Virus record (IMG/VR): IMGVR_UViG_3300006922_000128
Span: 1 to 28,811 of that record
DNA length: 28,811 nucleotides
Reading direction: 5' to 3' (one strand)
Source: a virus
Below, piece after piece: positions 3 through 20,224 of this stretch; within the stretch, counting starts at the first letter, position 1, and each line of letters starts with the position of its first letter. Both the position numbers and the translations under genes were made by a program. The notes under the pieces were generated by a model, which was given only the letters and a program-made list of their open reading frames with translations, was not told the DNA's origin and made no database searches.

Positions 3-89
3 GTCACATCAGCAACAGCAACATACTCACTTACAGGTATATGTAATAACTCAGGTGGCTGTTCAGTAACAGTAAATCAAAACAACTAG
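3..89 (+). CDS. C-terminal end of an unidentified secreted or structural protein (partial)
   Basis: The frame beginning at base 3 is open from the window edge to a TAG at 87-89 and gives 28 residues rich in Ser, Thr, Val, Asn and Gly, with two Cys in the segment GICNNSGGCSV. This composition is typical of the last beta strands of phage fibre, adhesin or other extracellular proteins. The other two frames close sooner and give low-complexity or basic peptides. The start lies outside the window, so no function can be assigned. The next gene has its own promoter 5 bases after this stop, so this gene probably ends an upstream unit. Confidence 0.5.
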   Translation, partial: VTSATATYSLTGICNNSGGCSVTVNQNN

Positions 90-318: not shown

Positions 319-607
319 CAGTTTAAAATGGTATGCTGGTGCAATAGCATACGGACATTTATTATTGTTGATAGCATTATTTCCCATGTACTTTTTTGTT
401 TTATTTTTATTCGTTGTGCCTTTGTTGTGGCTTTTCATAGCATATTATATGGTGTATAATTATGCACAACGTGAAGGCATAGATTGGCCTAATACACCTA
501 TCTATTTGTTTGAACCTAATGAGTACGACCCTCATATTAGACCATTTATATTATACCATGATTTAGAACCTTTAGACATGTTTGGAGATTATGAACCACG
601 TTACTAA
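299..607 (+). CDS. Small membrane protein (second of three tandem relatives)
   Basis: 102 residues with an almost continuous hydrophobic region at about residues 12-54, long enough for two membrane spans, then a soluble tail rich in Asp, Glu, Pro and Tyr. It starts inside the preceding gene (20-base overlap) without a clear Shine-Dalgarno, which suggests translational coupling. Its segment SSLKWYAGAIAYGHLLLL aligns by eye with NSLRNYAIAVASAHVVVL in the next gene, at the same distance from the N terminus, so the two are probably paralogues. Function unknown. A holin-like role is conceivable from size and topology, but no lysin gene is adjacent. Confidence 0.65.
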   Translation: MLSKVTSSLKWYAGAIAYGHLLLLIALFPMYFFVLFLFVVPLLWLFIAYYMVYNYAQREGIDWPNTPIYLFEPNEYDPHIRPFILYHDLEPLDMFGDYEPRY

Positions 608-905
608 GTACACAAACAGTTTGAGAAACTATGCTATTGCTGTAGCAAGTGCTCACGTAGTAGTATTGGGTTGGTTGTATCCACAAGTTTTAATAACAAT
701 AGTTGTTCCACCAATAATATTCTATTTGCTTTTCTTATATTGCGAATTAATGTACGAAATTGAAGTAGGAACTAGATTGAGATTAATAAAAGCAATCAGT
801 GAAGCAGACAACCCAATCACAAAAGACGTACTAACGTGGGAATTGATATTACACGAAGAGCATAGTATATTTGGAAATGCTTCAAATGATAGGTTAGGGT
901 TTTAA
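591..905 (+). CDS. Small membrane protein (third of three tandem relatives)
   Basis: 104 residues from the ATG at 591. An in-frame TTG at 582 is less likely because GGAG at 584-587 lies just upstream of the ATG, though the 3-base spacing is short. Two predicted membrane spans lie at about residues 14-50, followed by an acidic soluble tail. It overlaps the previous gene by 17 bases and aligns with it both in the N-terminal hydrophobic region and weakly near the C terminus, where both have an FG[DN] step. Part of the operon driven from 94-122. Function unknown; acquisition by tandem duplication is the simplest explanation. Confidence 0.62.
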   Translation: MNHVTKYTNSLRNYAIAVASAHVVVLGWLYPQVLITIVVPPIIFYLLFLYCELMYEIEVGTRLRLIKAISEADNPITKDVLTWELILHEEHSIFGNASNDRLGF

Positions 906-974: not shown

Positions 975-1304
975 ATGAAAGAATTTAAAAACATGTTCTT
1001 TGGTATATTTTTTGTTATCTTCGCTCAAGGATGTGCTACAGTTGGTACCATCAATGAAGCAGTAGTAGAAGGCATAGCCGATACTACAGACACAGTTTTT
1101 ACTGGTGTCTCTAAAGTAACAGGCGCAGTTGTTAATGAGGCAGGAAATGCCTTACAAACAGGTGCTGAACTAGGCGTTGGCATAGTCCAAGGTGCTGGTG
1201 ATATTGTTGCTGGTTCAGTCGAAGTTGTTGCTGATTCTGTAAATGAATCTACAGACGCAGTTCAAGACGATAAAGAAGAAGCAAAAGAAGAGCCAAAAAA
1301 GTAA
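975..1304 (+). CDS. Phage-encoded lipoprotein
   Basis: 109 residues. A short basic start (MKEFK), a hydrophobic core and the lipobox AQGC (Cys20) mark a signal-peptidase-II lipoprotein that would be anchored in the inner or outer membrane. The mature part is an Ala/Val/Gly/Thr-rich amphipathic repeat (recurring TxxVxxGxxxV..AG patterns) ending in a Lys/Glu tail, with no enzymatic motif. A strong Shine-Dalgarno (AAGGAGAA, 962-969) sits before the ATG. The last sense codons are CCA AAA AAG directly before TAA, which creates a canonical A_AAA_AAG slippery heptamer. A -1 shift there would add 58 residues (see findings). Possible roles include superinfection exclusion or a spanin-like outer-membrane component; neither is shown. 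Confidence 0.75.
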   Translation: MKEFKNMFFGIFFVIFAQGCATVGTINEAVVEGIADTTDTVFTGVSKVTGAVVNEAGNALQTGAELGVGIVQGAGDIVAGSVEVVADSVNESTDAVQDDKEEAKEEPKK

Positions 1305-1477
1305 GACGCTCATTCTTTAAACCCTTTGTGTTTTTTAAAAAGCAGGAAGGTATAGCAACACCCTCGAAAGAGAGTGAGCAGGTGACTGACGAGGATATTA
1401 AACAATTGATTGAGGAGGTTAAACTTCTAAAAGCAGTTATGGAATATTGCTCCAAGAATCCTAAGGAATGTGAATAA
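1301..1477 (+). CDS. Short -1-frame extension of the lipoprotein, or a 49-residue separate ORF
   Basis: This frame is open from 1274 to a TAA at 1475-1477. Read from the only plausible start, GTG at 1328, it gives 49 residues: a Lys-rich start, an acidic helix-prone middle (EQVTDEDIKQLIEEVKLLKAV) and the end MEYCSKNPKECE. It could also be read by a -1 frameshift at the A_AAA_AAG heptamer (1295-1301), adding 58 residues with a very basic junction to the lipoprotein. Its end overlaps the next gene by 8 bases. Its YCxxNPxECE motif recurs in that next protein, which argues that this stretch is truly coding. No Shine-Dalgarno precedes the GTG. Function unknown. Confidence 0.5.
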   Translation, partial: VRRSFFKPFVFFKKQEGIATPSKESEQVTDEDIKQLIEEVKLLKAVMEYCSKNPKECE

Positions 1478-1955
1478 GTTATTATTACTTTTACCTATCA
1501 TGATATTTCCTCTGTTAGCAATAGCAGAGGAACATATCGTTAAGTTAGATCTAACTTACAAAATGCCAATAGACTTTAACTATTGTGACAACAATCCCCC
1601 AGAGTGCGAGCCACTGCCACCCTTAGTACCAAAATTTGATATGCGAGAAGGCGCAACAAATAAACAATGGGCAATATTTTGGACATTCCAAATATTAGAT
1701 GTATACTCTACATCAAAAGCATTACAGTACGATTGTATAAAAGAAGTAAATCCGTTGTTTACAGACTCGCCTAGTAATACTAGATTAGTATTAACAAAAA
1801 GTGTACTACTTATACCTGGCTTACTTTACAATGATTACTGGAAAAATGTAGACCCTGAAGAACTAGATAATACTAATATGTTATATGCGGCAGTTGTTGG
1901 AAATAATTTTAGGTTACTAAAGAGAGCCAAACGAGATTGCAATAGAATAAATTAA
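1470..1955 (+). CDS. Secreted or membrane protein with signal peptide and E-x-NPL motif
   Basis: 161 residues from GTG 1470 with AAGGAA just upstream (1463-1468). Residues 1-19 form a Sec signal peptide with a likely cut after AIA. The mature protein carries YCDNNPPECE (about residues 38-47), a Pro-rich linker, and then a region resembling small membrane proteins of the DUF5658 type: hydrophobic WAIFWTFQILDVYST, EVNPLF, then a second hydrophobic stretch near LVLTKSVLLIPGLLY. That family resemblance is from memory of the D..T / E.NPL pattern and is tentative. The first Cys motif matches the end of the preceding short frame, suggesting related or interacting products in the envelope. Confidence 0.6.
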   Translation: MNKLLLLLPIMIFPLLAIAEEHIVKLDLTYKMPIDFNYCDNNPPECEPLPPLVPKFDMREGATNKQWAIFWTFQILDVYSTSKALQYDCIKEVNPLFTDSPSNTRLVLTKSVLLIPGLLYNDYWKNVDPEELDNTNMLYAAVVGNNFRLLKRAKRDCNRIN

Positions 1956-1969: not shown

Positions 1970-2710
1970 GTGTTAAAAGAAAAAGTAATAGACATAACTC
2001 ACTACTCGGATAGACTATTCAGTTTTAAAACTACTCGAGATAAAACATTTAGATTTAAAAATGGCGAATTTGCTATGATAGGTCTTGATGTAGATACCAC
2101 AGTCAAAGGCAGACCATTACCTAAAAAGATTATGAGAGCATACAGTATTGTGAGTACAAATTACGATGATCATTTAGAATTTTTAAGTATTAAAGTTCCT
2201 GATGGTCCACTAACAAGCAAATTGCAAAATATACAAGTAGGTGATGAAATACTTGTGAACCCAAAAGTAACAGGCAGTTTAGTTGTAGATTATTTAACAC
2301 CCAAAGAAAATTTAGTTATGTTAGCAACAGGCACAGGCATTGCACCTTTTGTCAGTATAGCACAAGACCCTGAAACATACAGCAGATTCAAACGTGTTTA
2401 CTTATTTCATACTGTGAGAAATGTAAATGAAATTACATACGAAGAAAAACTAAATACTATAGCAGAAGATATGCCTTTTGTTTATATACCAACTGTAACA
2501 AGAGAAGAATATAAACGTGAAGGTAGGTTTTGGCAATACATAGAGCACTTATTACCAAATGGATTTTTAAAAGAAAGAGACGGTGTTATGGTATGTGGTT
2601 CTCCAAGTATGAATAAAGAATGTCGTTCATTTTTTACTACTCTTAATTGGCAAGAGGGCAACACAGGTGAAATGGGCGACTTTATGTTAGAAAGAGCATT
2701 TGTAGATTGA
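1970..2710 (+). CDS. fpr: Ferredoxin/flavodoxin-NADP(+) reductase
   Basis: 246 residues. Fpr enzymes move electrons between NADPH and ferredoxin or flavodoxin in the cytoplasm. Visible motifs: the FAD-binding RAYSIVS (56-62), the pyridine-nucleotide glycine motif ATGTGIAPF (119-127), VMVCGSPSM (206-214), and the C-terminal ending GDFMLERAFVD. That ending is the hallmark of the proteobacterial Azotobacter/Rhodobacter-type Fpr subclass. Length is near normal for the family and no motif is broken, so the enzyme is probably active. The start is GTG at 1970, exactly at the predicted +1 of a late promoter. Its stop overlaps the next ATG by one base (TGATG), so it heads a coupled three-gene operon with a small protein and an adenylyl cyclase. 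Probable auxiliary metabolic gene of host origin; no ferredoxin gene is seen in this window. Confidence 0.88.
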   Translation: MLKEKVIDITHYSDRLFSFKTTRDKTFRFKNGEFAMIGLDVDTTVKGRPLPKKIMRAYSIVSTNYDDHLEFLSIKVPDGPLTSKLQNIQVGDEILVNPKVTGSLVVDYLTPKENLVMLATGTGIAPFVSIAQDPETYSRFKRVYLFHTVRNVNEITYEEKLNTIAEDMPFVYIPTVTREEYKREGRFWQYIEHLLPNGFLKERDGVMVCGSPSMNKECRSFFTTLNWQEGNTGEMGDFMLERAFVD

Positions 2711-2958
2711 TGGATTCAGACAAAATTATTAGTGCCTTGCAAAAAGGCGTTGTTACAATCGTTTTTGAAAAAATAGATACAGGGGAAATTCGTACAATGC
2801 CCTGCACATTAAATAACGATATATCAGGACAATCATTAAAAATTAAAAAGTACTCTAGTCCAGATGCAGTAGTATGTTGGGGCCTTGACGTAAAAGCATG
2901 GCGAGATGTTAGAGTTAATACTATAAAAGAATGGTACGAAGGATATCCTAAAGAATGA
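2710..2958 (+). CDS. Small conserved beta-rich phage protein (DUF2693-like)
   Basis: 82 residues starting at ATG 2710, which overlaps the reductase stop by one base; the upstream in-frame TTG at 2707 is not needed. The protein reads as a short helix, then a strand pattern GVVTIVFEK / IRTMPCTL, and ends with VVCWGLDVKAWRDVRVNTIKEW. The combination of GVV-VxFxK, a central CTL and a final W[DE]xxxxxWRxxR is, from memory, that of small DUF2693-type proteins common in T4-like phages; function unknown. It overlaps the cyclase start by four bases (ATGA), so its translation is coupled to both neighbours. It is probably a phage core gene into whose operon the reductase and cyclase were placed. Confidence 0.6.
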   Translation: MDSDKIISALQKGVVTIVFEKIDTGEIRTMPCTLNNDISGQSLKIKKYSSPDAVVCWGLDVKAWRDVRVNTIKEWYEGYPKE

Positions 2959-4820
2959 AATGGCTATACAGTGGCTATGCTGTAATTTTATCAATAGCAC
3001 TATTGTTAGGTTTACAAGTTGCAGACCCTACGCCAATTAAAAATTTAAGAAATCAAACATTCGACGCCTATCAGCAACTAGACGAAATCAAACAAAGTAA
3101 CGAAGTTGTTATTGTAAACATAGGAGAAAAGAGTTTACAGCAATGGGGACAATGGCCATGGCCAAGGCAAAACTTTGCCCAACTAATCCATGACCTAAGA
3201 CAGAAGAACCAAGGCATAATTGGACTTACAGTTATGTTTCCAGAAGCAGATAGGTTTGGCGGCGACCCTACATTAGCAAGTTGGTTGAAAGGCAACGGTA
3301 TTGTGTTATCACAAACACCAAGTACAAGAGGTGTTAAAACAACAGGACCTCATATAGGTACAGGAGTTATTGGACCTACAAAGGCACAAGACTTTTTATT
3401 AACATGGCCTAACTTAGTAACAAACATACCCGAATTAGAAGCAGAAGCATTTGGCATAGGTGTCAACGCCTCCGCTCCGCAACCCGATTTTGTAACAAGA
3501 ACATATCCATTAGCAATAGGAGTAGAAGGAAAAATATATCCTAGTTTTGCAATAGAGATGTTGCGAGTACAAACAGGCAAACCCAGTTATATAATTAAAA
3601 CAACAAATATAGGAATAGATGAATTTGCTGTTCCGCCATTTGATCCAATAGTTACATTACCAAAAGGTGATGCATATATACGTTACAATAATACATTTGA
3701 AGAAGTAGAATATGTAGACATAAACAGTTTGCCAAATATGGGTGGCAAATTTGTAATTGTGGGCGTTACAGCAGAGGGTGTTGCTAACCCTGTGCCTACT
3801 CCAAGAGGCAATATGTATCCACAGCATATACAAGCACACATGCTACAAAATTTTATAGATGGATCAAACATACAGCGGAACCAAGTATCGCCGCTTATAG
3901 AACTTCTGTGTGCGTTGTGTGGCATGATTTTAATAGCCATCGCGGTGTATAGATTACCTTTACTGTGGACAGCACCTATTTCACTGCTGATTTTAGGTGG
4001 AGAAGCATATGGTAGTGTATGGTTATACCAAAACAAATTACAGTTAGTAGATGCTACTTTTCCTGTGCTAAGTGGCTTCTTAATTTTTACACAATCAGCA
4101 TTTAATAACTTCTATAAACAATACAAATTACGTCAACAAATCAAAGGACAGTTTGGTACTTACATATCCCCGGACTATGTTGATATGTTAGTTAAAGATC
4201 CTAGTTTAATGAAACTAGGTGGCGAAAGAAAAGAAATGAGTTTTATGTTTGCTGACATAGTCGGCTTTACGCCCATATCAGAAAAGTATATGAAAGCAGA
4301 TGACCCAGAAGGATTAGTAGAACTAATAAACAGTTTCTTAGATAAAATGACTAAGATAGTTTTGAAGAACGGCGGTACAATAGACAAGTTCATGGGCGAC
4401 TGTATAATGGCGTTTTGGAATGCACCTTTACCATGTGAAAATCATGCTGAGATGGCAGTTAAAACAGCAATAGAAATTGAACTACTTGGCGACGAACTAG
4501 AAAAAGAAATGGAACAACGTGGCTTGCCAAGAGTGAAATTTGGTACAGGTGTAAACACTGGTACATGTATTGTCGGCAACATGGGTGCTGAAACTAGATT
4601 GGATTATAGTGTTGTAGGTGATGCTGTAAACTTAGGTGCTAGACTCGAAGCACAAACAAGAGCAGAAGACACACCAATTATTGTTTCTGAATATACATAC
4701 TTGCAATGCAGTGATATAGCATTTAGTAGCATAGGCGAAGTTACTGTGAAAGGTAAGGAAGAGCCAGTTAGAATGTATGCTCCATTATTTGATGGTAAAG
4801 TTAGAAAACTTTACAAGTAA
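2955..4820 (+). CDS. CHASE2-domain transmembrane class III adenylyl cyclase
   Basis: 621 residues with a complete sensor-cyclase layout: an N-terminal membrane anchor (about 5-22), an extracytoplasmic CHASE2 sensor domain (about 25-300), two or three closely spaced membrane spans (about 312-380), a short linker and a cytoplasmic class III cyclase domain (about 425-610). Catalytic features are intact: metal-binding Asp434 (FADIVGF) and Asp482 (FMGD), purine-selecting Lys478 with Ser552 in the position usually Thr in bacterial adenylyl cyclases, and transition-state residues Asn559 and Arg563 in VNLGARLE. Expected reaction: ATP to cAMP plus pyrophosphate, gated by an unknown periplasmic signal. 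The ATG overlaps the preceding stop by four bases. It ends directly against a convergent minus-strand gene. A full-length membrane sensor cyclase is unusual in a phage and probably came from a bacterium. Confidence 0.9.
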   Translation: MKWLYSGYAVILSIALLLGLQVADPTPIKNLRNQTFDAYQQLDEIKQSNEVVIVNIGEKSLQQWGQWPWPRQNFAQLIHDLRQKNQGIIGLTVMFPEADRFGGDPTLASWLKGNGIVLSQTPSTRGVKTTGPHIGTGVIGPTKAQDFLLTWPNLVTNIPELEAEAFGIGVNASAPQPDFVTRTYPLAIGVEGKIYPSFAIEMLRVQTGKPSYIIKTTNIGIDEFAVPPFDPIVTLPKGDAYIRYNNTFEEVEYVDINSLPNMGGKFVIVGVTAEGVANPVPTPRGNMYPQHIQAHMLQNFIDGSNIQRNQVSPLIELLCALCGMILIAIAVYRLPLLWTAPISLLILGGEAYGSVWLYQNKLQLVDATFPVLSGFLIFTQSAFNNFYKQYKLRQQIKGQFGTYISPDYVDMLVKDPSLMKLGGERKEMSFMFADIVGFTPISEKYMKADDPEGLVELINSFLDKMTKIVLKNGGTIDKFMGDCIMAFWNAPLPCENHAEMAVKTAIEIELLGDELEKEMEQRGLPRVKFGTGVNTGTCIVGNMGAETRLDYSVVGDAVNLGARLEAQTRAEDTPIIVSEYTYLQCSDIAFSSIGEVTVKGKEEPVRMYAPLFDGKVRKLYK

Positions 4821-5444
4821 TTATTCGTCAGGTGACCAATGTTCCATAGAACGGAACACACTTCTTGCAGTAACTAGATCTTTTTTAAGTTCTATTAAAT
4901 AAAGAAATTCAAAAGGCTTCTCGCCAATTTTTTCTAATGGGTAATGATATGTTGATGTTATATGATCTATTGCATTAATGTCTCTTTGCACACAATTAAT
5001 AATAGTATTACGCCATTCTGCATCTTTAAACATATCTAGTACAAAAACATGTACATGACTTTCGGGGTTATAACTGTTCATTATATTAAGTAATTCGTAG
5101 TATAATGCTCGAATAGGATTTAAGTTTTCTCTGTACTTAGAACTAACAATAGGAAATTTCCATTTATCTTCTTTGGTACATTGATGTTTATAAAAATACA
5201 AGTACTCTTCCATAAACGATTCATAAATGTTTTCTTGACTTTTACGCAATCTACTAGCAAGTATGCGTCTTATTTTATTGAGAAGTTTGAGATGATACTC
5301 GTATAATGCACCTTTATACATACTATGCAAATCATCAGGATTCATGCGACCATCGATAAATTCGATTGGCACTTCGTTAGACTTTGCAAACTTTATCAGT
5401 AAGTTTTCTAGTCTTATCTTTTTAAAATCTATTATGTCTGGCAT
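4821..5444 (-). CDS. Conserved hypothetical protein of the neck/tail gene cluster
   Basis: 207 residues, largely helical, mixed charge, rich in Tyr, Arg and Lys, without signal peptide, membrane span or recognisable catalytic motif. It starts at ATG 5444, overlapping the end of the Nudix gene by 13 bases, and is the last gene of a minus-strand operon with gp14, gp15 and the Nudix hydrolase. Its stop abuts the stop of the convergent cyclase with no spacer. From position it could be a tail-completion or other virion-assembly protein (T4 gp3 would be of comparable size), but I do not recognise the sequence and would not name it. Confidence 0.7.
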   Translation of the reverse strand: MPDIIDFKKIRLENLLIKFAKSNEVPIEFIDGRMNPDDLHSMYKGALYEYHLKLLNKIRRILASRLRKSQENIYESFMEEYLYFYKHQCTKEDKWKFPIVSSKYRENLNPIRALYYELLNIMNSYNPESHVHVFVLDMFKDAEWRNTIINCVQRDINAIDHITSTYHYPLEKIGEKPFEFLYLIELKKDLVTARSVFRSMEHWSPDE

Positions 5445-5932
5445 TTATGTAAATTTAATATAGTTTCAAGTTTTTCGTTACCTTTATTGTAACTTAAGGT
5501 TGCTCTGGCACCCTCGTGTAATGGCTTTGGCCATGTACCGATGTTTACCCAAGCATACCCACAACTTTCACCATTTAAATTTGGCATAAATTCGTGTTCT
5601 ATGACTGCAACAAAACTATAATACATAAAGTTTTTGTCCTTACTTTGATAAACATCAATAGGATTTAGTTTATTAATATCTGGAACTAACCCTAATTCTT
5701 CATCAAGTTCACGTGTTAAGGCTTCATACGGTGACTCGCCTTTTTCAACAAGTCCTCCCCAAAACCCCCAAGTGTGTTTATGTCGTTTGTCGCTGTTTCT
5801 GAATTGTAAAAGTACACGTTCTGTATCAAGAGCAAGAAATAATGTGCCTACGCCTATAACACCTACAAAAGGTTCTATAGGACTAGAGTCCAATATCCCG
5901 GATTGTATTCCCCCTCGTATATGCTCAGCCAT
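5432..5932 (-). CDS. Nudix (MutT-type) hydrolase
   Basis: 166 residues from ATG 5932. An in-frame ATG at 5947 adds five residues, but the inner one has AGGA five bases upstream. Nudix enzymes cleave nucleoside diphosphates linked to another moiety, for example oxidised dNTPs, ADP-ribose or capped RNA. The 23-residue Nudix box is complete: Gly, five residues (LVEKG), Glu, seven residues, then RELDEELGL, preceded by HTWGFWGG. Near the C terminus GYAWVNIGTWPKPLHEG resembles phage Nudix proteins. It overlaps the end of gp15 by 58 bases and the next gene by 13, so it is embedded in a structural operon. Substrate cannot be told from sequence. Confidence 0.85.
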   Translation of the reverse strand: MAEHIRGGIQSGILDSSPIEPFVGVIGVGTLFLALDTERVLLQFRNSDKRHKHTWGFWGGLVEKGESPYEALTRELDEELGLVPDINKLNPIDVYQSKDKNFMYYSFVAVIEHEFMPNLNGESCGYAWVNIGTWPKPLHEGARATLSYNKGNEKLETILNLHKCQT

Positions 5933-7236
5933 TGTGTTCCTGTCCATTTGTATACTTTGTTTGTATTTAAGTTTCTGGTTACTGCTGTAGTATTAATGTT
6001 GGCACTTGCATCATATGAAACCGTCCAATTAGAACCGTTAAATTCTATTATGTCATTTTCTGATGCGTCAATGTTCCACTCTGGATAACCAGTTTTTGAA
6101 AGATCTTCTGTAATTAAGTATCGCTGACCAATTTCTAGGTTTGCTAGTGTACCATCACCTGGTATATTATTATGTGGATTGATAATTTTTTCAATATTGC
6201 CTATAGTAGGAGCGGGTAATGTATCAGTATCTAGATTAAAAATTAATTGGCTGTCGTCTGACGGATGTTTTGCAATAGTTCCTGCAATATCCTGCGAGTC
6301 GTCTTCCATATCATTTGTAATTTTCAATTTTAAAATGCTGGTATCATCTATTAATTCTTTGTCGTACATGGCTAGTAATTCAGTCCAACTCTTTGTCTCT
6401 ATACCACCTGAGTCATATAGAGTTGCAGAATTGCTTAAAATACTAACTTTGTAATTACCTGGTGAAACAATTAAACGTGATTGGATATCAAAACTTCTAA
6501 AGAAATCATGTATGTCTTCATCATATCCAATTTCGCTAAGTGATTGCCCACCAAAATCTGTTATAATATTGCTATGTATTTCGTGTATAATACTTTGTCT
6601 TTTAACTTTAGCAGGTGGATTAATCCAAATAGGCAAAGTAAATGTTAATGTTGTAACATCTATTTGCTCGTCTACACCTGCAGGAATACTTCTATTAGTA
6701 AACTGTATATCGGTTAATTCTACTTCAACAATTTGTGTCCAATCAAACGGATTAGAGTTTTGTTGTAACTGTATTGTTGGATTAAATAGAACTAGTATTT
6801 GTTCCATTAACTGTAATTTAGTATCAGTATTGGGTGTCCATATATCAACTTGCATGGTTAAGTTATATGGAACTGGCATATATCTATTAATTGTATATTG
6901 ATTGCCTTGTTCTGCTTCATAACTTTGTGTATCGTTATTAAACTTTCTTTCTGTGATACTTTTAGTATCTGTAAAGAAAGGATCTTGAGTTCTATCTCTA
7001 GCAATTTGCAAACTTTGTATGCTAACACCTATAAAAGGTGTACTGTTAATAACATTTTCTGAATTTTGTCTAAGAATATGCGAAACCATTCTGCTTGGAT
7101 CTGCATATCTTATAGGCACAGTATTGTATCTTTCGTCCTCACCGTCCCTACTGCCTTCTTTAACTTTGAATGCATGAAATATTCTAATAAATTGTAGAAT
7201 ATATCGTCTTATTTGTTCATCATACCAGTACTGCAT
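5875..7236 (-). CDS. gp15: Tail sheath stabiliser and completion protein (gp15-like) with long C-terminal extension
   Basis: 453 residues. In T4, gp15 (272 residues) forms the ring that caps the contractile tail and receives the head. The N terminus (YWYDEQIRRYILQFIRIF, then RYNTVPIRYADPSRM) matches the gp15 pattern of an aromatic start and a VPI.YA motif. The middle carries MPVPYNLTMQVDIWTPN, a series of strands, and LTFTLPIWINPPAKV at about 197-211, where the T4-size core ends. Residues about 231-453 are an extra region ending in a beta module with NDIIEFNGSNWTVSYD and VYKWTGTQWLSIY. Start ATG 7236 is two bases after the gp14 stop. This order and pairing with gp14 support the call. Confidence 0.8.
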   Translation of the reverse strand: MQYWYDEQIRRYILQFIRIFHAFKVKEGSRDGEDERYNTVPIRYADPSRMVSHILRQNSENVINSTPFIGVSIQSLQIARDRTQDPFFTDTKSITERKFNNDTQSYEAEQGNQYTINRYMPVPYNLTMQVDIWTPNTDTKLQLMEQILVLFNPTIQLQQNSNPFDWTQIVEVELTDIQFTNRSIPAGVDEQIDVTTLTFTLPIWINPPAKVKRQSIIHEIHSNIITDFGGQSLSEIGYDEDIHDFFRSFDIQSRLIVSPGNYKVSILSNSATLYDSGGIETKSWTELLAMYDKELIDDTSILKLKITNDMEDDSQDIAGTIAKHPSDDSQLIFNLDTDTLPAPTIGNIEKIINPHNNIPGDGTLANLEIGQRYLITEDLSKTGYPEWNIDASENDIIEFNGSNWTVSYDASANINTTAVTRNLNTNKVYKWTGTQWLSIYEGEYNPGYWTLVL

Positions 7237-8642: not shown

Positions 8643-9806
8643 ATGGCTAGACAGAAAAAACAGCGATCAGTGTATATCACTACAGAGCCCGATTGGAAGA
8701 CTCTGAAGTTAATCACTGACCCAGAAAAACAAAAAGAAGCATTTCGCAGTTGCGAATACTTTGCTAGAACAGAAGTTAGTAAAACTAAAGGATTACCTAT
8801 TGTCAAAAGTTGGATCAAAGATCATGCAGGATGGACGCCTGAGGAAGTAAAAATTATTTTAGCAAATCCAGACTGGACTTTTAGTTCTTGCATAAGCACA
8901 CTTTTTGTATGGCACAAATTAGGATACATGCCAGACCATTTACGCGAACATTACGAAAAACGTAAAAATGAAGAATGGATGCCAAGAGGCAAAAAGGCTC
9001 TAGCAGAGAAGATAGAAAAAGTCGAAGCAAAATTAGCCAAGCCTGTAATCAGTATACAGCAAAGAATGAAAGAACAAGTATCTGATTTATGCGGTGAGTT
9101 TGAATTCTTTATTGATCAATGGATTGATGGAGAAAAAACACTCAAAGAGTTTGACCCGTATAAAATGATGATGTCTTATCAGCCTGAAATTAAAGGCCCT
9201 CATGCTAAAATAATTAAAGAAGATTTTGAAGCACAATACAACGAAGCAAAATTAGTAGTTGAATGGCAAGACGAAGACATAAAAGAAGGCTATAGTCACT
9301 TTGATGCTAAAATGCGTAAAACCTTCTTACAAGTGTTTGAAAAGATCAATACTGCTTGTGATACTATTGTGGCAACAAAAGCCACTACACGCAAGGCTCG
9401 TAAGCCTAAGGCACGGTCTAAAGAGGCTATCGTAAAGAAATTAAAGTATGCTGTAAACTTTCCAGAGTTAGGATTAGCAAGTTTGCACCCAACAGATATA
9501 GTTTATGCTAATGAAGTTTGGGTATACAACACTAAGACTAGAAAGATAGGTGTTTATCATGCTAAAACAATAGATCCAAAAAACATGCAAAGACCTGGAA
9601 CAGGTATAATGGTTAAAGGAACAACACTACAGGATTTTGATGAAGAAACTAGTATACAAAAAACACTGAGAAAACCAGCAGAAATGCTTAAAGGATTTGA
9701 TGCAGGTAAAATGAAATGCAAAAAATCCTTTGAAGAACTCACTACAACACCTACTAAAATGAACGGTAGATTTAACGAGCATACTATTATACTTAAGAGT
9801 TTTTGA
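8643..9806 (+). CDS. Conserved T4-like phage protein of unknown function
   Basis: 387 residues, basic, soluble. The first ~110 residues are compact with several Trp and Cys; residues about 110-290 are helical and charged with a Lys/Arg-rich stretch (TTRKARKPKARSKEA). The C-terminal part contains EVWVYNTKTRKIGVYHA, MVKGTTLQDFDEETS and IQKTLRKPAEML, an arrangement I associate with uncharacterised proteins of marine T4-like phages. The basic linker suggests nucleic-acid contact, as inference only. The ATG at 8643 has no Shine-Dalgarno. A 7-codon reading frame starting at ATG 8627 stops across this start codon. The gene stop overlaps the late box of gp13. Confidence 0.7.
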   Translation: MARQKKQRSVYITTEPDWKTLKLITDPEKQKEAFRSCEYFARTEVSKTKGLPIVKSWIKDHAGWTPEEVKIILANPDWTFSSCISTLFVWHKLGYMPDHLREHYEKRKNEEWMPRGKKALAEKIEKVEAKLAKPVISIQQRMKEQVSDLCGEFEFFIDQWIDGEKTLKEFDPYKMMMSYQPEIKGPHAKIIKEDFEAQYNEAKLVVEWQDEDIKEGYSHFDAKMRKTFLQVFEKINTACDTIVATKATTRKARKPKARSKEAIVKKLKYAVNFPELGLASLHPTDIVYANEVWVYNTKTRKIGVYHAKTIDPKNMQRPGTGIMVKGTTLQDFDEETSIQKTLRKPAEMLKGFDAGKMKCKKSFEELTTTPTKMNGRFNEHTIILKSF

Positions 9807-9812
9807 TAAATA
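9805..9812 (+). promoter_or_regulatory. T4-like late promoter box, leaderless start of gp13
   Basis: TTTTGATAAATA; the core GATAAATA overlaps the stop codon of the previous gene. Predicted +1 is 9818, the A of the gp13 ATG. Confidence 0.75.
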
Positions 9813-9817
9813 GTTGT

Positions 9818-10573
9818 ATGAGTGCAACAGAAACCCCTAGAGATAGACTAATTACAGAGATCAAGTTACGTTTAGGTGACGGAATGATCGACGTGGAATT
9901 AGATCCAGAACACTATAATCTAGCAATAGACAGAGCAATACAAACAATCAGAAGTAGAAGTGATTCTGCTGTAGAAGAAAGTTATGCTTTTTTGCAAACA
10001 CAACCAGATGTACAAGAATATACACTTCCAGGTGAAGTGTTAAATATCAGAAGAGTATATCGAAGAGGTGTTGGTGGTGGTAACATAGGTACAGGTACAA
10101 ACTTTGATCCGTTTGACGTTGCATTTCAAAACACATATCTAATCAATGCAGGTGTTGTTGGTGGTCTAGCCAACTATGATGCATTTACTCAATACAAAGA
10201 AACACTTAATAGAATATTTGGCGGTGATTACGACTTTACATTCAACACAAATACCAAAGTGTTAAAATTATTGCGTAAGATATCTATAACAGAAGACATA
10301 ATGATACAGATTTCTAATTTAGTGCCAGAACAAAATTTATTAGAAAACGAGTATTCCAGACCATGGATGGCAGATTGGGCATTAGCAGAAGCAAAAATGA
10401 TGCTTGGTGAAGCAAGAAGTAAGTATGCTTCAGGCTTGCCAGGGCCACAAGGTTCCGTTCAGTTAAACGGCGAGGCTTTAAAGCAAGAGGCCATGACTGA
10501 GAAGGAAAGATTACTACAGTCAATAATTAACATGGAAGAAGGAAATAAAAATTACGGCTTTGTTATAGGATAA
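9818..10573 (+). CDS. gp13: Neck protein (gp13-like)
   Basis: 251 residues from ATG 9818; an in-frame TTG at 9803 lies inside the promoter and previous gene and is rejected. gp13 joins gp14 in the portal-to-tail connector. Family features: RDRLITEIKLRLGDGMIDVELDPEHY at the start, followed by AIDRAIQTIRSRS; a DVQEYTLPGEVLNIRRVYR strand pair at about 63-85; WMADWALAEAKMMLGEARSKY in the C-terminal part; then LPGPQGSVQLNGEALKQEA and a final helix. This matches the T4 gp13 layout, including the WMA.W helix and the LPGG..LNG motif. T4 gp13 is somewhat longer (309). Followed after the stop by the dNMP kinase ATG with no spacer. Confidence 0.85.
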   Translation: MSATETPRDRLITEIKLRLGDGMIDVELDPEHYNLAIDRAIQTIRSRSDSAVEESYAFLQTQPDVQEYTLPGEVLNIRRVYRRGVGGGNIGTGTNFDPFDVAFQNTYLINAGVVGGLANYDAFTQYKETLNRIFGGDYDFTFNTNTKVLKLLRKISITEDIMIQISNLVPEQNLLENEYSRPWMADWALAEAKMMLGEARSKYASGLPGPQGSVQLNGEALKQEAMTEKERLLQSIINMEEGNKNYGFVIG

Positions 10574-11254
10574 ATGAACACAATAGGATTATTAGGTAAT
10601 ATAGGATCAGGTAAAAACACCGTAGCACAATATTTGGCAACTAAAGGTTGCATTCCAACATCATTCGCAGGCCCACTAAAAGACTTATGTGCAAACGTAT
10701 TTGGCTGGGAAAGAGAATTACTAGAAGGTGAATCAGACGAAAGTAGACAGTTCAGAGAAACTGTTGATATGTTTTGGAGCAAAAAATTAAGTATTCCTAA
10801 TTTTACTCCAAGATTAGCATTACAATTAATAGGCACAGATGTAATGCGTAATCATTTCAACGAAAATATATGGATAAGCAGTTTAGAATACAGAGTTAAA
10901 AAACTGCATCATCAAAATGAATGTGTTGTTATAAGCGATTGTCGTTTTCAAAACGAAGTCAACATTATACAGTCAATGAATGGTACTGTTATTTTAGTAG
11001 AAAGAGAAGAAAAACCTGAATGGTATGATATTGCACTTAAGGCCAATGAAGGTGATGCTGTAGCAAGGCACATAATGAATAGAGATTTCAAACATGTTCA
11101 CGCAAGTGAATGGGATTGGATTGGTTGCCATATAGACTTTACAGTAAAAAATAACGGAACCAAAGAAGAACTATTTGAACAAATAGATGAAATTATTGAA
11201 AAACTTCCACAAAAACCAGAAATATTCACAGATAATACCATAGAGATAATTTAA
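10574..11254 (+). CDS. gp1: Deoxynucleoside monophosphate kinase (gp1-like)
   Basis: 226 residues (T4 gp1, 241). These kinases phosphorylate dNMPs to dNDPs using ATP, feeding phage DNA synthesis. The P-loop GNIGSGKNT (8-16, Lys14) starts the protein; LPGPL-like SFAGPLKDLCANVFGW follows at about 34-49, then LALQLIGTDVMRNHFNENIWI (about 80-100) and VVISDCRFQNEVNII (about 118-132), all typical of the gp1/dNMP-kinase family. The gene begins on the base after the gp13 stop, with AGGA upstream inside gp13. It therefore shares the late gp13 transcript, which is odd for a nucleotide-metabolism enzyme needed early, unless it also has read-through from 8585. Confidence 0.87.
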   Translation: MNTIGLLGNIGSGKNTVAQYLATKGCIPTSFAGPLKDLCANVFGWERELLEGESDESRQFRETVDMFWSKKLSIPNFTPRLALQLIGTDVMRNHFNENIWISSLEYRVKKLHHQNECVVISDCRFQNEVNIIQSMNGTVILVEREEKPEWYDIALKANEGDAVARHIMNRDFKHVHASEWDWIGCHIDFTVKNNGTKEELFEQIDEIIEKLPQKPEIFTDNTIEII

Positions 11255-11299
11255 GGTCTTATTTATCATTTTTTATAAGAATTACTGATTTGTTATTTT

Positions 11300-11358
11300 T
11301 ATAATACCACATTTATTGCATTTTTTAATAAATACATGTAACCAAATAAGGTATTATA
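11300..11358 (+). repeat. Nine-base inverted repeat flanking the gp18 late promoter
   Basis: TATAATACC at 11300-11308 is the exact reverse complement of GGTATTATA at 11350-11358. The right arm touches the gp18 Shine-Dalgarno; the left arm lies upstream of the late promoter. Confidence 0.7.
11327..11334 (+). promoter_or_regulatory. T4-like late promoter box for the tail sheath gene
   Basis: AATAAATA after a run of six T. Predicted +1 is 11340, giving a 29-base leader with the Shine-Dalgarno AGGAG (11358-11362) ahead of ATG 11369. The 114-base gap from 11255 to 11368 contains this promoter and the inverted repeat and no gene. Confidence 0.75.
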
Positions 11359-11368
11359 GGAGAAAAAT

Positions 11369-14230
11369 ATGGCAACATTAGTATCACCTGGTGTAGATAT
11401 TTCAGTATCAGACGAATCGTTTTATTCGCCTGGCGGTCCTGGAACAGTACCTTTGATTGTAATTGCAACAGCAAAGAACAAATCTAATCCTGATGGATCG
11501 GGTCTAGCACCTTACTCCAAAGCAGAAACAGACAATGAACTTTACTTAATTACAAGTCAAAGAGAATTGTTACAGCAATACGGAAATCCACAATTCTACA
11601 GCACAGGAGGAACTCCACAACATGGTTACGAATTAAACGAGTACGGTTTATTAGCCGCACATAGTTTTCTAGGTCTGGCTTCAAGAGCATACGTTCTTAG
11701 ATCAGATGTAGACTTAGATGAATTAAAACCATTGTCAAATGCACCGTCGGCTGATCCGGCAGATGCAACTATATGGGTAGACTCAAGTGCTACTAAGTGG
11801 GGTATCTTCGAATATAACACATCTTCATCAAAGTATGAAGAAAAAACAGACGTAAAAATATTTACAAAAGACGAAATTACCAGCGGTGGCGTACCAAAAC
11901 CATCAGTAGGTAAAAATGGCGATATCGGGATCTTAGGTATAGATCAAAACGGTAAAGCAAAAGCAGAAGTAGTATATTACTTAAAAGCATCATCTGTATG
12001 GCATGAGTTGACAGATGCAAGTACATTTGTATCTAATACTTCTAAAGACTGTCAGTTTGTGACTCATTTAAACAGACCAACTACAAGAAAAGACAGTAGT
12101 GCTCTTCAAAGTGGCGATTTAATTGTTCAAACAACATCAGCCGCAAGTGGATTAAAGTATGGACTAAAAGTTTATAACTCATCTACTGCATCATGGGTCA
12201 GTACAACAGCAGAAGGTTATGCCAATTCAGCAAGTGCTTATGCAAGTACAAGCATTGGTGCAACACCAGACGCCGGCACATTCTTTGTAGAATATGATTC
12301 AGGTAATAAACTGGACTCAGACGTACATGGAAGATTTGCTTTAAGAAGACATAACGGTCAAAGCAGTTTACAAATACAAAGTTCAGCCGCTATTAGCGAT
12401 ACTGCAATAGCAAAACAAACAGGCGGTTCAGACTATGGTATCAGATTAAAAATTGATAATAGTGCATCAAATATTGATGTTAAATTTTCAACTGATACAA
12501 GTGGCGACGGTAACGTTAGTGTTGATGACATTGTTCAAGACATAAATGACCAATTATCATCAACAAATGTAGTAGCATCAAACGTATCTGGTAAACTTAC
12601 ACTTGTTTCCAATGACGGTAAAGACATTGATGTTTTCAATGGAGATGTAGGTGGTGTATCATTTAATGTATTCACAGAATTAAACATTGCTACAGGTAAT
12701 TACAGTAACTTTAAAGTTGCAGACGTTTCTGGAACAGTTGCACAAATTGATAGTAAAAATTATGAATTTGGTACTACAGCACCAACTGGTGATTTAGCAA
12801 CAGGTAAACTTTGGTATGATAGCAGTAACAATGTTGACATTTGGTACAACAAAAATGTTGGCGGAACTGCAACATGGACAAAATACTCAGCAGACTACGA
12901 TGTAAACGTAGCGGCGAGTGAGCCTACAACACAAAGCGATGGCGGTTCTTTAGTGGACGGCGACCTTTGGGTTGATTCAGATAATTTAGAAGATTATCCA
13001 TTAATTTACAAAAGAAAATCAAGTGCATGGGTACTAGTTGATAATTCAGATCAAGTATCAGCAGACGGCGTCCTGTTCTTAGATTTAGCATCATATGGCG
13101 CATCAGTGGTAGACGCAGATGCAAAAGATCCAGCAACAGTACCATTTGGTATTTTAGCATGGAACTTTAGAGCCAGTGGTAAAAACGTTAAGAAATACTA
13201 CACTTCATATTCTTACAGTGGCGGTACACTATCTAACGTATGGGTAAGTGAGTCAGGCAACAAAGCAGACGGTTCACCATACATGGGTAGAAAAGCACAA
13301 AGAAAAGTTATTGTACAATCAATGCAGGCCGCATTAGCAAACAATAGCGAAATCAGAAGTGAAGTTAATTTCTACAACTTGATTGCCGCTCCTGGATATC
13401 CAGAACTAATAGATGAGATGATTACTCTTAACACAGATAAGAAAGAAGTCGCATTTATTGTTGGTGATAGTCCAATGAGATTAAAATCAGATGCAACCAG
13501 CATTAAAAACTGGTCAACCAATGCCAATAACGCAAGTGAAAACGGTGAAGATGGACTTATTGCAAGTAATCCATACGTTTCAGTTCACTATCCATCAGGT
13601 TTAACAACAAACTTAGACGGAAGTAGTGTTGCTGTACCGGCTTCTCATATTGCATTAAGAACATTTGCATTTAATGACAATGTGGCATATCAATGGTTTG
13701 CACCAGCAGGGTATCAAAGAGGTATAGTACAAAACGCAACTAGTGTCGGTTATGTTGACGGACCAAGTGGCGAGTTTGTACCTGTTTCATTAAACAACGG
13801 ACAAAGAGATACACTTTATGCAAATAAAGTTAATCCAATTGCTAACTTCCCAGGAAGAGGCTTAGTTGTATTTGGACAGAAGACTCTAAACCCAACTGCA
13901 AGTGCATTAGATAGAATTAACGTAGCAAGGCTTGTAAACTATATTAGATATCAATTAGATATCGCAGTTAAGCCTTTCTTATTTGAACCAAATGATGGTA
14001 TAACCAGATCAGGTGTTAAGCGAGTTGCTGATTCATTATTATCAGAACTAGTTACACTAAGAGGTCTATTTGACTTTATTAGTGTTTGTGATACAACAAA
14101 TAACACACCTGCAAGGATTGACAAAAACGAATTATACTTGGATATAGCAATTCAGCCAACTAAAGCAGTTGAATTTATATACATTCCGATTAGAATTCAG
14201 TCAACTCTTGGTCAAACAGGCTCAGAATAA
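11369..14230 (+). CDS. gp18: Contractile tail sheath protein (gp18-like), enlarged
   Basis: 953 residues, against 659 in T4. The sheath polymer surrounds the tube and contracts to drive it through the envelope. The N terminus (MATLVSPGVDISVSDESF...GTVPLIVIATAKNK) and C-terminal third are classical: ILAWNFRASG, KVIVQSMQAAL, LIAAPGYPELIDEM, GYQRGIVQNATSVGY, NPIANFPGRGLVVFGQKTL, NVARLVNYIRYQLD, and a final strand IEFIYIPIRI-type arm. The protruding insertion (about 120-590) is much larger than in T4 and contains repeated WVDS...Y....W modules (about 135-158, 249-277, 479-505, 531-557) plus an EF-hand-like loop (376-387). Strong Shine-Dalgarno, late promoter and terminator make it a single-gene unit suited to high expression. 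Confidence 0.93.
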   Translation: MATLVSPGVDISVSDESFYSPGGPGTVPLIVIATAKNKSNPDGSGLAPYSKAETDNELYLITSQRELLQQYGNPQFYSTGGTPQHGYELNEYGLLAAHSFLGLASRAYVLRSDVDLDELKPLSNAPSADPADATIWVDSSATKWGIFEYNTSSSKYEEKTDVKIFTKDEITSGGVPKPSVGKNGDIGILGIDQNGKAKAEVVYYLKASSVWHELTDASTFVSNTSKDCQFVTHLNRPTTRKDSSALQSGDLIVQTTSAASGLKYGLKVYNSSTASWVSTTAEGYANSASAYASTSIGATPDAGTFFVEYDSGNKLDSDVHGRFALRRHNGQSSLQIQSSAAISDTAIAKQTGGSDYGIRLKIDNSASNIDVKFSTDTSGDGNVSVDDIVQDINDQLSSTNVVASNVSGKLTLVSNDGKDIDVFNGDVGGVSFNVFTELNIATGNYSNFKVADVSGTVAQIDSKNYEFGTTAPTGDLATGKLWYDSSNNVDIWYNKNVGGTATWTKYSADYDVNVAASEPTTQSDGGSLVDGDLWVDSDNLEDYPLIYKRKSSAWVLVDNSDQVSADGVLFLDLASYGASVVDADAKDPATVPFGILAWNFRASGKNVKKYYTSYSYSGGTLSNVWVSESGNKADGSPYMGRKAQRKVIVQSMQAALANNSEIRSEVNFYNLIAAPGYPELIDEMITLNTDKKEVAFIVGDSPMRLKSDATSIKNWSTNANNASENGEDGLIASNPYVSVHYPSGLTTNLDGSSVAVPASHIALRTFAFNDNVAYQWFAPAGYQRGIVQNATSVGYVDGPSGEFVPVSLNNGQRDTLYANKVNPIANFPGRGLVVFGQKTLNPTASALDRINVARLVNYIRYQLDIAVKPFLFEPNDGITRSGVKRVADSLLSELVTLRGLFDFISVCDTTNNTPARIDKNELYLDIAIQPTKAVEFIYIPIRIQSTLGQTGSE

Positions 14231-14247
14231 GATTATTCTAAAAATTA

Positions 14248-14278
14248 TAAAGGGTGGATTTTTCCGCCCTTTATTTTT
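14248..14278 (+). terminator. Rho-independent terminator after gp18
   Basis: TAAAGGGTGG (14248-14257) pairs with CCGCCCTTTA (14264-14273) to give a ten-base-pair stem including one G-U pair, with a six-base loop ATTTTT, followed by TTTTT at 14274-14278. It separates the sheath from the tube gene, which has its own late promoter. Confidence 0.9.
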
Positions 14279-14289
14279 GGCCGAAAGAT

Positions 14290-14297
14290 GATAAATA
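14290..14297 (+). promoter_or_regulatory. T4-like late promoter box for the tail tube gene
   Basis: ATGATAAATA, with the core GATAAATA right after the gp18 terminator. Predicted +1 is 14303, leaving a 37-base leader that contains AGGAG at 14327-14331 before ATG 14340. Confidence 0.75.
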
Positions 14298-14339
14298 AAT
14301 GTAATTAGCATGTATAACATGTGATTAGGAGATCGAAAG

Positions 14340-14960
14340 ATGGCAGTAACAAAAGATAAATTTGGTGTACCTATTGAAGGTGCTCGATTAGGTATTTTAC
14401 AACCTAAACTCAAATACAGATTCCGTGTAATCGTAACTGGATTTGGAGCAGGTGGTAGAACCGATGAGTTTACAAGTAACATCGTGAGTGTAACTAGACC
14501 AACATTTAATGTTGACGAAGTTGAAGTTCACAGTTATAACTCTCGTGCATATATTTCAGGTAAACATCAATGGGAAGCGATTAATCTCAGTTTAAGGGAT
14601 GATATTACTAACCAAGTTTCCGCTTTAGTCGGTCAGCAAATCCAAAGACAATTTAACCATTTCGAACAAACTACCGCAGTTAGTGGTGGAGACTATAAAT
14701 TCGATATGCTTATCCAAGTCTTAGATGGTACAAATGCTGAGCCAACAGAGCAATGGGAACTAGAAGGATGTATGCTACAACAGGTTAACTATAGTGATCA
14801 CTCATATGATGCCAGCGAAATTGTTCAACTAGACTTGAACGTCAGATACGATAACGCGGTACATGTGGCAGGACCTAATACACTCGGTGGTAAAGTTGCC
14901 GCAGGTGACCCATTCCCATTGGTATCACCACTACCAGCAACACCAGGCACTGGAGTATAA
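14340..14960 (+). CDS. gp19: Tail tube protein (gp19-like)
   Basis: 206 residues (T4 gp19, 163). It stacks in rings to make the inner tube through which DNA passes. The pattern is that of the tube fold: an N-terminal strand LKYRFRVIVTGFGAGGR, a VSVTRP.FNVDEVEVHSYNS strand pair, GKHQWEAINLSLRDD (the conserved W..I...RDD motif), a helix QVSALVGQQIQRQFNHFEQ, DGTNAEPTEQWELEGCMLQQVNYSDHSYDASEIVQLDLNVRYDNA, and a Gly/Pro-rich tail. Position directly after gp18, its own late promoter and a Shine-Dalgarno are as expected for an abundant virion protein. Confidence 0.88.
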   Translation: MAVTKDKFGVPIEGARLGILQPKLKYRFRVIVTGFGAGGRTDEFTSNIVSVTRPTFNVDEVEVHSYNSRAYISGKHQWEAINLSLRDDITNQVSALVGQQIQRQFNHFEQTTAVSGGDYKFDMLIQVLDGTNAEPTEQWELEGCMLQQVNYSDHSYDASEIVQLDLNVRYDNAVHVAGPNTLGGKVAAGDPFPLVSPLPATPGTGV

Positions 14961-14988
14961 TTTAGGCCTATATCTATAGGGAGGACCG

Positions 14989-16053
14989 ATGGCGAAATTC
15001 TGGAAAGAGTTAATCGGCGGACAAGTTAAAAACGGGATTTATGTAGCCGGACCTAGACACGCAAGTAGTAAACTAGCGAGTTTTAGTACCGGCAATCCCC
15101 CTCGTTTGCCGTTTCAGTATATAGTTCATTTTGAACTAAATCCCACATTACAAGCATTATTTTTAAATAAGACTGGGCCTTATTCCCTAGCACAAATGGT
15201 CAAAACAATTGATATGCCAAGTATGGCTGTGACAGTTGAAAAAAGACCAAAGTATAATAAAAATGTTCCAGTAATTTTAACAAAAGAATTCAAACCTTTT
15301 AATGTAACAGTACATGATGATGTATCGAGTACATGGCAAGAACTGTGGCAAGTATATTACAATTATCATTTTACTGATGGCAGACATACTCAAGCAGTTC
15401 CAGGAGTTGCTTCAGGTGAACTCCAAGACTGGAATAGTGTAATACATAATAGTAAACTAATAAGACACGAAGGCGACCATATGAGTCAATTCGATGGTAT
15501 AGATGTTCATAATGCCACAAATGCACAATTCTTTAATAATATTCATGTTTATCAAATACATGGTCAAACAGTACAACGCACAACAGCCGTCAATCCGATG
15601 ATCAGTGATGTGTCGTTTACGCCACTAGATTACGCAGGAGCAGGAAGTTCACAGGAAATAACTTTTGCATTTGAATACGAAAAGTTACATTATTCTCCTG
15701 TTATAAATTTTGATTTTGATGAGGAAAGCACATTCTTACAAGAGGCTATAGAAGATTATACTAAAGCAACACCATTCAATCCAACCGGTGATAGACTAAG
15801 AGGAATTGTAAAAGGTTTATTTGGATTAACTCAACGTGCCGGCAATAGAGGCAAAAATTTAACTGCTGTAAATACAGCACCAAGACAAGACTACGGTGGC
15901 GATTTAAGTAGTATAAAAACAGCAGGTGAAGATCCCGAAGCAGTTGGATTCTTTGGTAACCTAGTTCGTAATGCTGTTAGAAAAAAAGCAAATGAACTTA
16001 CCGATGGATTACTCAAGAAAAATAACAAAAACCTTAGCAAGTTCAAGATATAA
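14989..16053 (+). CDS. Second tail-tube-fold protein (tube terminus, initiator or gp19 paralogue)
   Basis: 354 residues. After a short leader the sequence contains PFQYIVHFELNP, MVKTIDMPSMAVTVEKRPKYNKNVPVILTKEFKPFNVTVHDDV, SSTWQELWQVYYNYHFTDGR, FFNNIHVYQIHGQTVQRTTAVNPMISDVSFTPLDYAGAGSSQEITFAFEYEKLHY: the same succession of strands, helix and strands as gp19, with the conserved .P.NVTVHDD step, plus an extra C-terminal ~110 residues. It follows gp19 by 28 bases with the Shine-Dalgarno GGGAGGA. T4 has tube-fold caps and initiators (gp48, gp54) at the baseplate and gp3 at the head end. Which of these it replaces cannot be told by eye. Confidence 0.7.
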   Translation: MAKFWKELIGGQVKNGIYVAGPRHASSKLASFSTGNPPRLPFQYIVHFELNPTLQALFLNKTGPYSLAQMVKTIDMPSMAVTVEKRPKYNKNVPVILTKEFKPFNVTVHDDVSSTWQELWQVYYNYHFTDGRHTQAVPGVASGELQDWNSVIHNSKLIRHEGDHMSQFDGIDVHNATNAQFFNNIHVYQIHGQTVQRTTAVNPMISDVSFTPLDYAGAGSSQEITFAFEYEKLHYSPVINFDFDEESTFLQEAIEDYTKATPFNPTGDRLRGIVKGLFGLTQRAGNRGKNLTAVNTAPRQDYGGDLSSIKTAGEDPEAVGFFGNLVRNAVRKKANELTDGLLKKNNKNLSKFKI

Positions 16054-16056
16054 AAC

Positions 16057-16488: not shown

Positions 16489-16489
16489 C

Positions 16490-16930: not shown

Positions 16931-16933
16931 ATA
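16926..16933 (+). promoter_or_regulatory. T4-like late promoter box, leaderless start of gp16
   Basis: ACTAAATA, degenerate in its first two bases, overlaps the gp4 stop. Predicted +1 is 16939, the A of the small terminase ATG. Confidence 0.6.
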
Positions 16934-16938
16934 CAACT

Positions 16939-17403: not shown

Positions 17404-17419
17404 CTACATAGGAGATAGT

Positions 17420-18594: not shown

Positions 18595-18618
18595 ACACTT
18601 TTCTTAACCAAAAACCCA

Positions 18619-18626
18619 CATAAATA
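18619..18626 (+). promoter_or_regulatory. T4-like late promoter box, leaderless start of gp17
   Basis: CATAAATA; predicted +1 is 18632, the A of the large terminase ATG. No Shine-Dalgarno in the gap. Confidence 0.75.
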
Positions 18627-18631
18627 ACTGT

Positions 18632-20200: not shown

Positions 20201-20211
20201 TTAGTTTTTTT

Positions 20212-20219
20212 GATAAATA
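20212..20219 (+). promoter_or_regulatory. T4-like late promoter box, leaderless start
   Basis: TTTTTTTGATAAATA; the core GATAAATA gives a predicted +1 at 20225, the A of the downstream ATG. Confidence 0.75.
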
Positions 20220-20224
20220 TAAGT

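Follow-up and report, generated by a model that had tools for sequence, protein, structure and literature searches.

A predicted CHASE2 receptor adenylyl cyclase in the curli module of a marine phage with a jumbo-like backbone

Introduction

A phage-encoded adenylyl cyclase (AC) was placed in a curli (type VIII secretion) module in 2022, and the authors inferred an alphaproteobacterial origin of this enzyme and suggested a regulatory role (PMC9599517). When we searched the literature on phage CHASE2 proteins and phage-encoded adenylate cyclases, with preprints and most subscription papers lying outside the search, we found nothing on point beyond this study. Among cellular systems, the CHASE2 cyclases of S. 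meliloti respond via the outer-membrane barrel NsrA (PMC7529298, PMC13001267) and removal of the CHASE2 domain from CyaD1 leads to constitutive cAMP formation (PMC5498481). For Campylobacterota, CHASE2-AC/FecR/PDE/TPR gene clusters have been described (PMC9239204), and in Burkholderia a biofilm operon combines FecR with a CHASE2 kinase (PMC5192318).

Here, we analyzed a stretch of viral DNA of 28,811 nucleotides (IMG/VR record IMGVR_UViG_3300006922_000128, positions 1 to 28,811; called the window), which encodes a relative of these proteins. HTVC008M gp19 (43% identity) and Melnitz gp104 (33.5% identity) match its CHASE2-cyclase architecture across 98% of the length, and the pelagiphage modules, including those of HTVC023P-type podophages, exhibit the same gene order CsgF-CsgG-curlin-FecR-curlin-AC (PMC9599517). 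In contrast to these pelagiphage cases, the window phage has a jumbo-like backbone of the PA5oct type, and a cassette of eight ORFs, preceded by a separate promoter, lies between its curlin and AC genes. Melnitz differs additionally in its cyclase, which belongs to another lineage with an Asn-to-Ser exchange. Alphaproteobacterial cyclases of the S. meliloti CyaD1/CyaD2/CyaK type share domain order and catalytic set with the window protein, but they are chromosomally encoded away from curli genes and carry a C-terminal extension, which is missing from the window protein. The Campylobacterota cluster and the Burkholderia BiofilmReg system pair a CHASE2 sensor with a secreted FecR-domain protein, as the phage module does. 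However, only the phage module joins this pair to curli secretion genes, and the output of BiofilmReg is a histidine kinase instead of a cyclase.

Results

Receptor gene and catalytic residues

The receptor gene and the elements of its product are located as follows.

2955..4820, plus strand: CHASE2 receptor adenylyl cyclase, 621 aa, ATG start (Pfam CHASE2 and Guanylate_cyc, PHROG, model)
2973-3023, plus strand: first TM helix, residues 7-23 (model secondary structure, hydropathy)
3003..3932, plus strand: CHASE2 (extracytoplasmic sensor) domain, residues 17-326 (Pfam PF05226, E 7e-39)
3888..4157, plus strand: three C-terminal TM helices, residues 312-333, 336-361 and 368-401 (model secondary structure, hydropathy)
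4230..4766, plus strand: class III cyclase domain, residues 426-604 (Guanylate_cyc PF00211, E 1.4e-20; residue columns; CyaB 3r5g fold)

The protein was matched over its whole length by PHROG 35576 (E 3e-176). Its AlphaFold model (mean pLDDT 87, 48 aligned sequences as input) suggests the layout of a CHASE2 receptor, in which the extracytoplasmic domain is flanked by one N-terminal and three C-terminal TM helices. The closest solved cyclase is that of P. aeruginosa CyaB (PDB 3r5g, 38% identity), on which the cyclase domain superposes at 1.6 Å with a TM-score of 0.88-0.89 (by target length). The similarity to this enzyme is confined to the catalytic domain, and in the PDB sequence search 47/47 matches fell on the cyclase part and 0/47 on CHASE2. 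An earlier note on this DNA had described a complete membrane-spanning CHASE2 sensor with a class III cyclase, and the open reading frame, the Pfam domains and the four TM helices of the model agree with that description.

The six catalytic residues named in the same note sit where it had put them. They comprise the metal-binding Asp pair of class III cyclases (D434, D482), the adenine-specifying pair (K478, S552) and the transition-state pair (N559, R563), and S552 aligns with the second of the base-specifying residues. This set (D,D,K,S,N,R) was identical or carried an S-to-T exchange in 163 of the 187 distinct viral sequences and in 80/80 cellular relatives, which have either K/S (62/80) or K/T (18/80) as base-specifying pair. 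Class III cyclases with a K/S pair use ATP as substrate and therefore ATP is the predicted substrate of the window protein. From its residue pattern we classify it as class III adenylyl cyclase (K/S-T, class IIIb-like), for which ATP-to-cAMP activity and dimer formation are predicted, and it is very probably an active enzyme. The features of a Pycsar (pyrimidine cyclase) system were not found: the base-specifying pair is of the adenylyl type and no effector gene adjoins the cyclase in the window or in its relatives.

Promoter, upstream cassette and flanking genes

On both sides of the receptor gene the following features were identified.

3..89, plus strand: curlin-repeat gene, 3' end only, truncated at the window edge (frame reads ...VTSATATYSLTGICNNSGGCSVTVNQNN and then a stop; overlap with contig L002)
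94..122, plus strand: sigma70-like promoter TTGACA-17-TATAAT, 12/12 match, 4 nt past the curlin stop
133-318, 299-607 and 582-905, plus strand: three short hydrophobic ORFs with homologues in the same place in relatives
975..1304, plus strand: small lipoprotein-like ORF (lipobox ..FAQGC in the translation), position conserved
1328-1477: 49-aa ORF, member of the cassette
1470..1955, plus strand: 161-aa membrane protein, weakly DUF5658-like (under the Pfam cut-off)
1970..2710, plus strand: FNR-type FAD/NAD oxidoreductase (PF00175/PF00970), translationally coupled to the WYL_2 gene
2707..2958, plus strand: WYL_2 (Sm-like) protein (PF10902), stop overlaps the cyclase ATG (ATGA)
4821..7236, minus strand: convergent genes for a 207-aa protein, a NUDIX hydrolase and gp15
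5432-5947, minus strand: NUDIX hydrolase, overlaps the gp15 gene
5875-7236, minus strand: gp15 tail-sheath stabiliser, anchor of the presence/absence survey

The first impression of a window without curli genes was ruled out, as the near-identical contig L002 overlaps the window start, runs on upstream into curlin repeats and thus shows that the window begins inside curlin. In the window lineage, eight ORFs form a cassette between curlin and cyclase, at the start of which the promoter is located. Promoter matches of 12/12 or 11/12 at a similar place were observed in 19 of 108 distinct relatives with varied spacers, and the retention of the hexamers next to different spacers argues that they are under selection. 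Since the cyclase of the window lineage thus has a promoter apart from that of curli, co-regulation of cyclase and curli is not assured there.

The cyclase start shares 4 bp (ATGA) with the upstream stop, which bears out the overlapping codons reported before, and FNR, WYL_2 and cyclase genes (window 1970-2958 on) are chained by 4-bp overlaps. The FNR/WYL coupling to the cyclase is restricted to some lineages; in others the FNR homologue lies several kb off, beyond tail genes. A relative (L032:2501-8001) carries an insertion of ~5 kb that separates the WYL_2 gene from the cyclase. The NUDIX/gp15 pair has kept its place beside the cyclase across gp15-bearing relatives, and so has the 207-aa ORF.

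The earlier note had assigned the gene to a phage late operon. In T4-like phages, host-type promoters mostly drive early genes, and as such a promoter precedes the cassette, the late assignment is unsupported as far as timing can be judged from promoter type. The cyclase ends a curli/accessory operon, its upstream neighbours are not structural late genes, and the structural genes converge on it from the minus strand. A scan of the window for late promoters was uninformative, with a single TATAAATA located on the minus strand.

Linkage to the curli module

Among 47 distinct loci with at least 6 kb of upstream DNA each, 46 carried curli/FecR genes upstream of the cyclase (FecR 46, curlin 45, CsgG 44, CsgF 42). 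A link to CsgF/CsgG/curlin/FecR, which characterizes a T8SS-module cyclase, was found for the window and for its long relatives, and Pfam confirmed the FecR domain in 3/3 phage examples tested. In HTVC008M and Melnitz, the cyclase follows immediately after curlin or a curlin-position gene at the end of the curli module. Judged by gene order, the phage carries a curli (type VIII secretion) module that ends with the cyclase gene, and the cyclase probably is a functional part of it.

Distribution, selection and phage backbone

Relatives of the receptor are encoded in 410 IMG/VR candidate stretches and the median dN/dS values within lineages varied between 0.05 and 0.10 for both domains. For a presence/absence survey, we used the neighbouring gp15 gene as anchor. 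When gp15 was at least 49% identical, the cyclase adjoined it in 46/46 relatives, whereas it was absent in 23/23 relatives with gp15 identities of 46% or less and enough flanking DNA. The simplest reading of this split is one gain or loss at the clade boundary, with the gene being retained thereafter. Taken together, the hundreds of marine viral contigs, the strong purifying selection and the 46/46 gp15 relatives uphold the statement of the earlier note that the gene is not an assembly artefact, and the homologue search proposed there as a check recovered it in every relative above this gp15 threshold. In one relative (L077:4376-4660), an early stop or frameshift interrupts the cyclase frame, which may be a pseudogene or a sequencing error.

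The best matches of TerL (58.5%) and of the 953-aa tail sheath (42%) were PA5oct/Paride-type jumbo phages, and these matches rule out a pelagimyophage backbone. The pelagiphage backbone accompanies the modules published so far but is no strict part of their definition. Related contigs that encode the cyclase (217, 250 and 340 kb) have the same sheath at 52-56% identity, and HTVC008M-type carriers match the window sheath in the C-terminal part only. This sheath comparison suggests that the curli-cyclase module is common to at least two unrelated myophage groups. Podophages carry it as well (PMC9599517). PA5oct-type isolates gave no match to the cyclase. From these comparisons, the window phage appears to belong to a marine, jumbo-like (PA5oct-related) clade in which the module is fixed, and the window probably represents only part of a far larger genome of a marine phage.

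The structural and replication genes of the window (9803-28811; TerL 18632-20200, sheath 11369-14230) are T4-like with PA5oct/Paride-type phages as nearest relatives. They include two adjacent tail-tube-family genes (14340-14960 and 14989-16053) that both belong to PHROG 4542. The second one is longer and diverged, and the pair looks like an old duplication.

Exchange of cyclase domains

Trees were calculated for 36 of the 187 distinct viral sequences together with cellular relatives. In the CHASE2 tree, all 36 viral sequences formed a single clade (support 1.0), and in the tree of the cyclase part they fell into three deep groups. Clustering of all 187 sequences at 65% identity yielded four cyclase clusters, and the commonest CHASE2 cluster (114 sequences) was paired with three cyclase clusters. 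It can be seen at the level of single pairs that the CHASE2 parts of L061 and L076 are 100% identical and their cyclases 42%, with the switch near residue 400. The window and L023 exhibit the reverse pattern (cyclases close, CHASE2 domains apart) with a switch near residue 320. When the cyclase label was mapped on the CHASE2 tree of 111 sequences, at least 20 changes were required compared with a minimum of 3. These sequence patterns indicate recombination of one CHASE2 lineage with three or more cyclase lineages, of which one is devoid of the catalytic Asn.

In this latter, Melnitz-type lineage the transition-state Asn is replaced by Ser in 24/24 distinct sequences (L069, L076, L078-L081, L083 and 17 more distinct loci), so that the set reads D,D,K,D,S,R. 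Asn is retained in all eight of the closest relatives from Alphaproteobacteria that were inspected. With a dN/dS of about 0.05 the lineage is under strong purifying selection; these cyclases may have changed their chemistry or act non-catalytically, and because of this selection it may be that cAMP synthesis is not required as output in every case.

The assumption that CHASE2 tracks the curli module and the cyclase tracks the backbone was not supported by partial rank correlation, in which cyclase divergence followed both sides slightly better. CHASE2 divergence did not track the divergence of FecR or CsgG (partial rho 0.12 and 0.04), which argues against a tight receptor-ligand coevolution.

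Cellular relatives and cAMP receptors

The best 80 cellular matches originated mostly from Alphaproteobacteria (29-35% identity), and CsgF, CsgG and curlin were found in 0/80 of the flanking DNAs examined. FecR-domain genes were located within 2 kb of a bacterial CHASE2 cyclase in 16/42 genomes, compared with 0.14 expected from the genome-wide FecR density, and in 20/42 (0.67 expected) when flanks of up to 10 kb were considered. Thus, secreted FecR proteins are encoded next to CHASE2 cyclases of bacteria roughly 100 times as often as expected by chance, a ratio that is approximate because the observed count was obtained with a phage-derived HMM and the expectation with PF04773. Pfam confirmed the FecR domain in 3/3 cellular examples tested.

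A cNMP-binding protein (PF00027) was present in none of 16 long viral records, some of which are fragments, and for these records a phage-encoded cAMP receptor was ruled out. On the host side, a cNMP-binding match was obtained for 212 of 289 sampled alphaproteobacterial genomes and none for the other 77, which among those listed were mostly of 0.8-1.8 Mb. This census is a class-wide sample and is informative in general terms only.

Discussion

The location of a phage cyclase in a curli module and its annotated relatives in HTVC008M and Melnitz are already known. As far as the literature searched shows, our study adds the jumbo-like backbone, the fixation in that clade, the cassette with its promoter and the combination of a single CHASE2 lineage with cyclase lineages that were exchanged. 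It further adds the lineage with Ser in place of Asn and a measured excess of FecR genes next to CHASE2 cyclases of bacteria. The earlier note was right about an intact phage-borne receptor cyclase; its late operon and the proposed interference with antiphage signalling were not supported, and it missed the curli/FecR module and the relatives already published, as well as the jumbo-phage backbone and the cyclase-domain exchange. Its general reading, an envelope signal coupled to cAMP, fits an intact CHASE2 cyclase that is conserved across many phages.

We propose that the infecting phage would build curli fibres on its host and that the periplasmic CHASE2 domain would read the state of this envelope machinery, most likely via the secreted FecR-domain protein or the CsgG/curlin apparatus. 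The envelope state would alter the cAMP output of the class III homodimer, cAMP would act through a host receptor of the Crp/Clr type, and host gene expression would be adjusted to the surface remodelling. By analogy with NsrA and CyaK/CyaD of S. meliloti, one would expect the phage receptor to sense a partner in the outer membrane or the periplasm, for which the linked FecR and CsgG/curlin apparatus are the candidates. One prediction of this idea failed, as CHASE2 divergence follows neither that of FecR nor that of CsgG. That one of them provides the direct input is possible, at somewhat less than an even chance. The long phage records examined lack a cNMP-binding protein and hence the output is assigned to a host Crp-type receptor, which is as probable as its opposite. 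An even chance is also what we give to the whole explanation, an inner-membrane envelope-to-cAMP receptor tied to phage curli and acting via the host cAMP receptor.

The cyclase might instead reprogram host metabolism in general, raising cAMP soon after infection whatever happens to curli, and its linkage to the module would then reflect joint acquisition. The strong host-type promoter on the cyclase's own cassette, the coupling of the window cyclase to the FNR-type oxidoreductase and WYL_2 and not directly to curlin, and the divergence of CHASE2 independently of FecR and CsgG are consistent with this scenario. We nevertheless regard it as unlikely: the curli linkage holds in 46/47 loci and across two unrelated myophage backbones, the FNR/WYL coupling is limited to some lineages, and conservation of the CHASE2 sensor (dN/dS about 0.07-0.10) makes an unregulated output improbable. 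The Melnitz-type lineage, in which the gene is kept at a dN/dS of about 0.05 without the catalytic Asn, might point to a protein that serves the curli apparatus mainly as structural or sensory partner, with catalysis being dispensable. The intact catalytic set of the window lineage, preserved up to the S-to-T exchange in most distinct viral sequences (163/187), leaves little probability for such a non-cyclic-nucleotide role. The earlier note had also suggested an interference with cyclic-nucleotide antiphage signalling, which phage cAMP would swamp or mislead. Apart from the product being a cyclic nucleotide, nothing speaks for this counter-defence: the window and its relatives contain no defence-like or anti-defence neighbour, and the K/S pair is the pattern of an adenylyl cyclase. 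We consider it very improbable.

The proposed coupling of phage curli to host cAMP may also be part of a modular system of marine jumbo and pelagic phages, in which one phage-specific CHASE2 lineage would monitor the phage-built curli/FecR machinery. Recombination would have joined this sensor again and again to new cyclase outputs, which comprise three deep lineages, among them one whose catalytic chemistry would be altered. This is a speculative extension, which we hold to be rather unlikely; if true, the same envelope signal would be wired to different second-messenger responses of the host.

Phages that build curli have so far been described as supplying pelagic bacteria with a surface structure they do not have. 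A receptor cyclase that is fixed in the curli module and recurs in a second, jumbo-like group suggests that the phage also wires this surface to the second-messenger signalling of its host. The conserved bacterial FecR-CHASE2 pairing makes the input of CHASE2 receptors testable with a small and defined set of genes.
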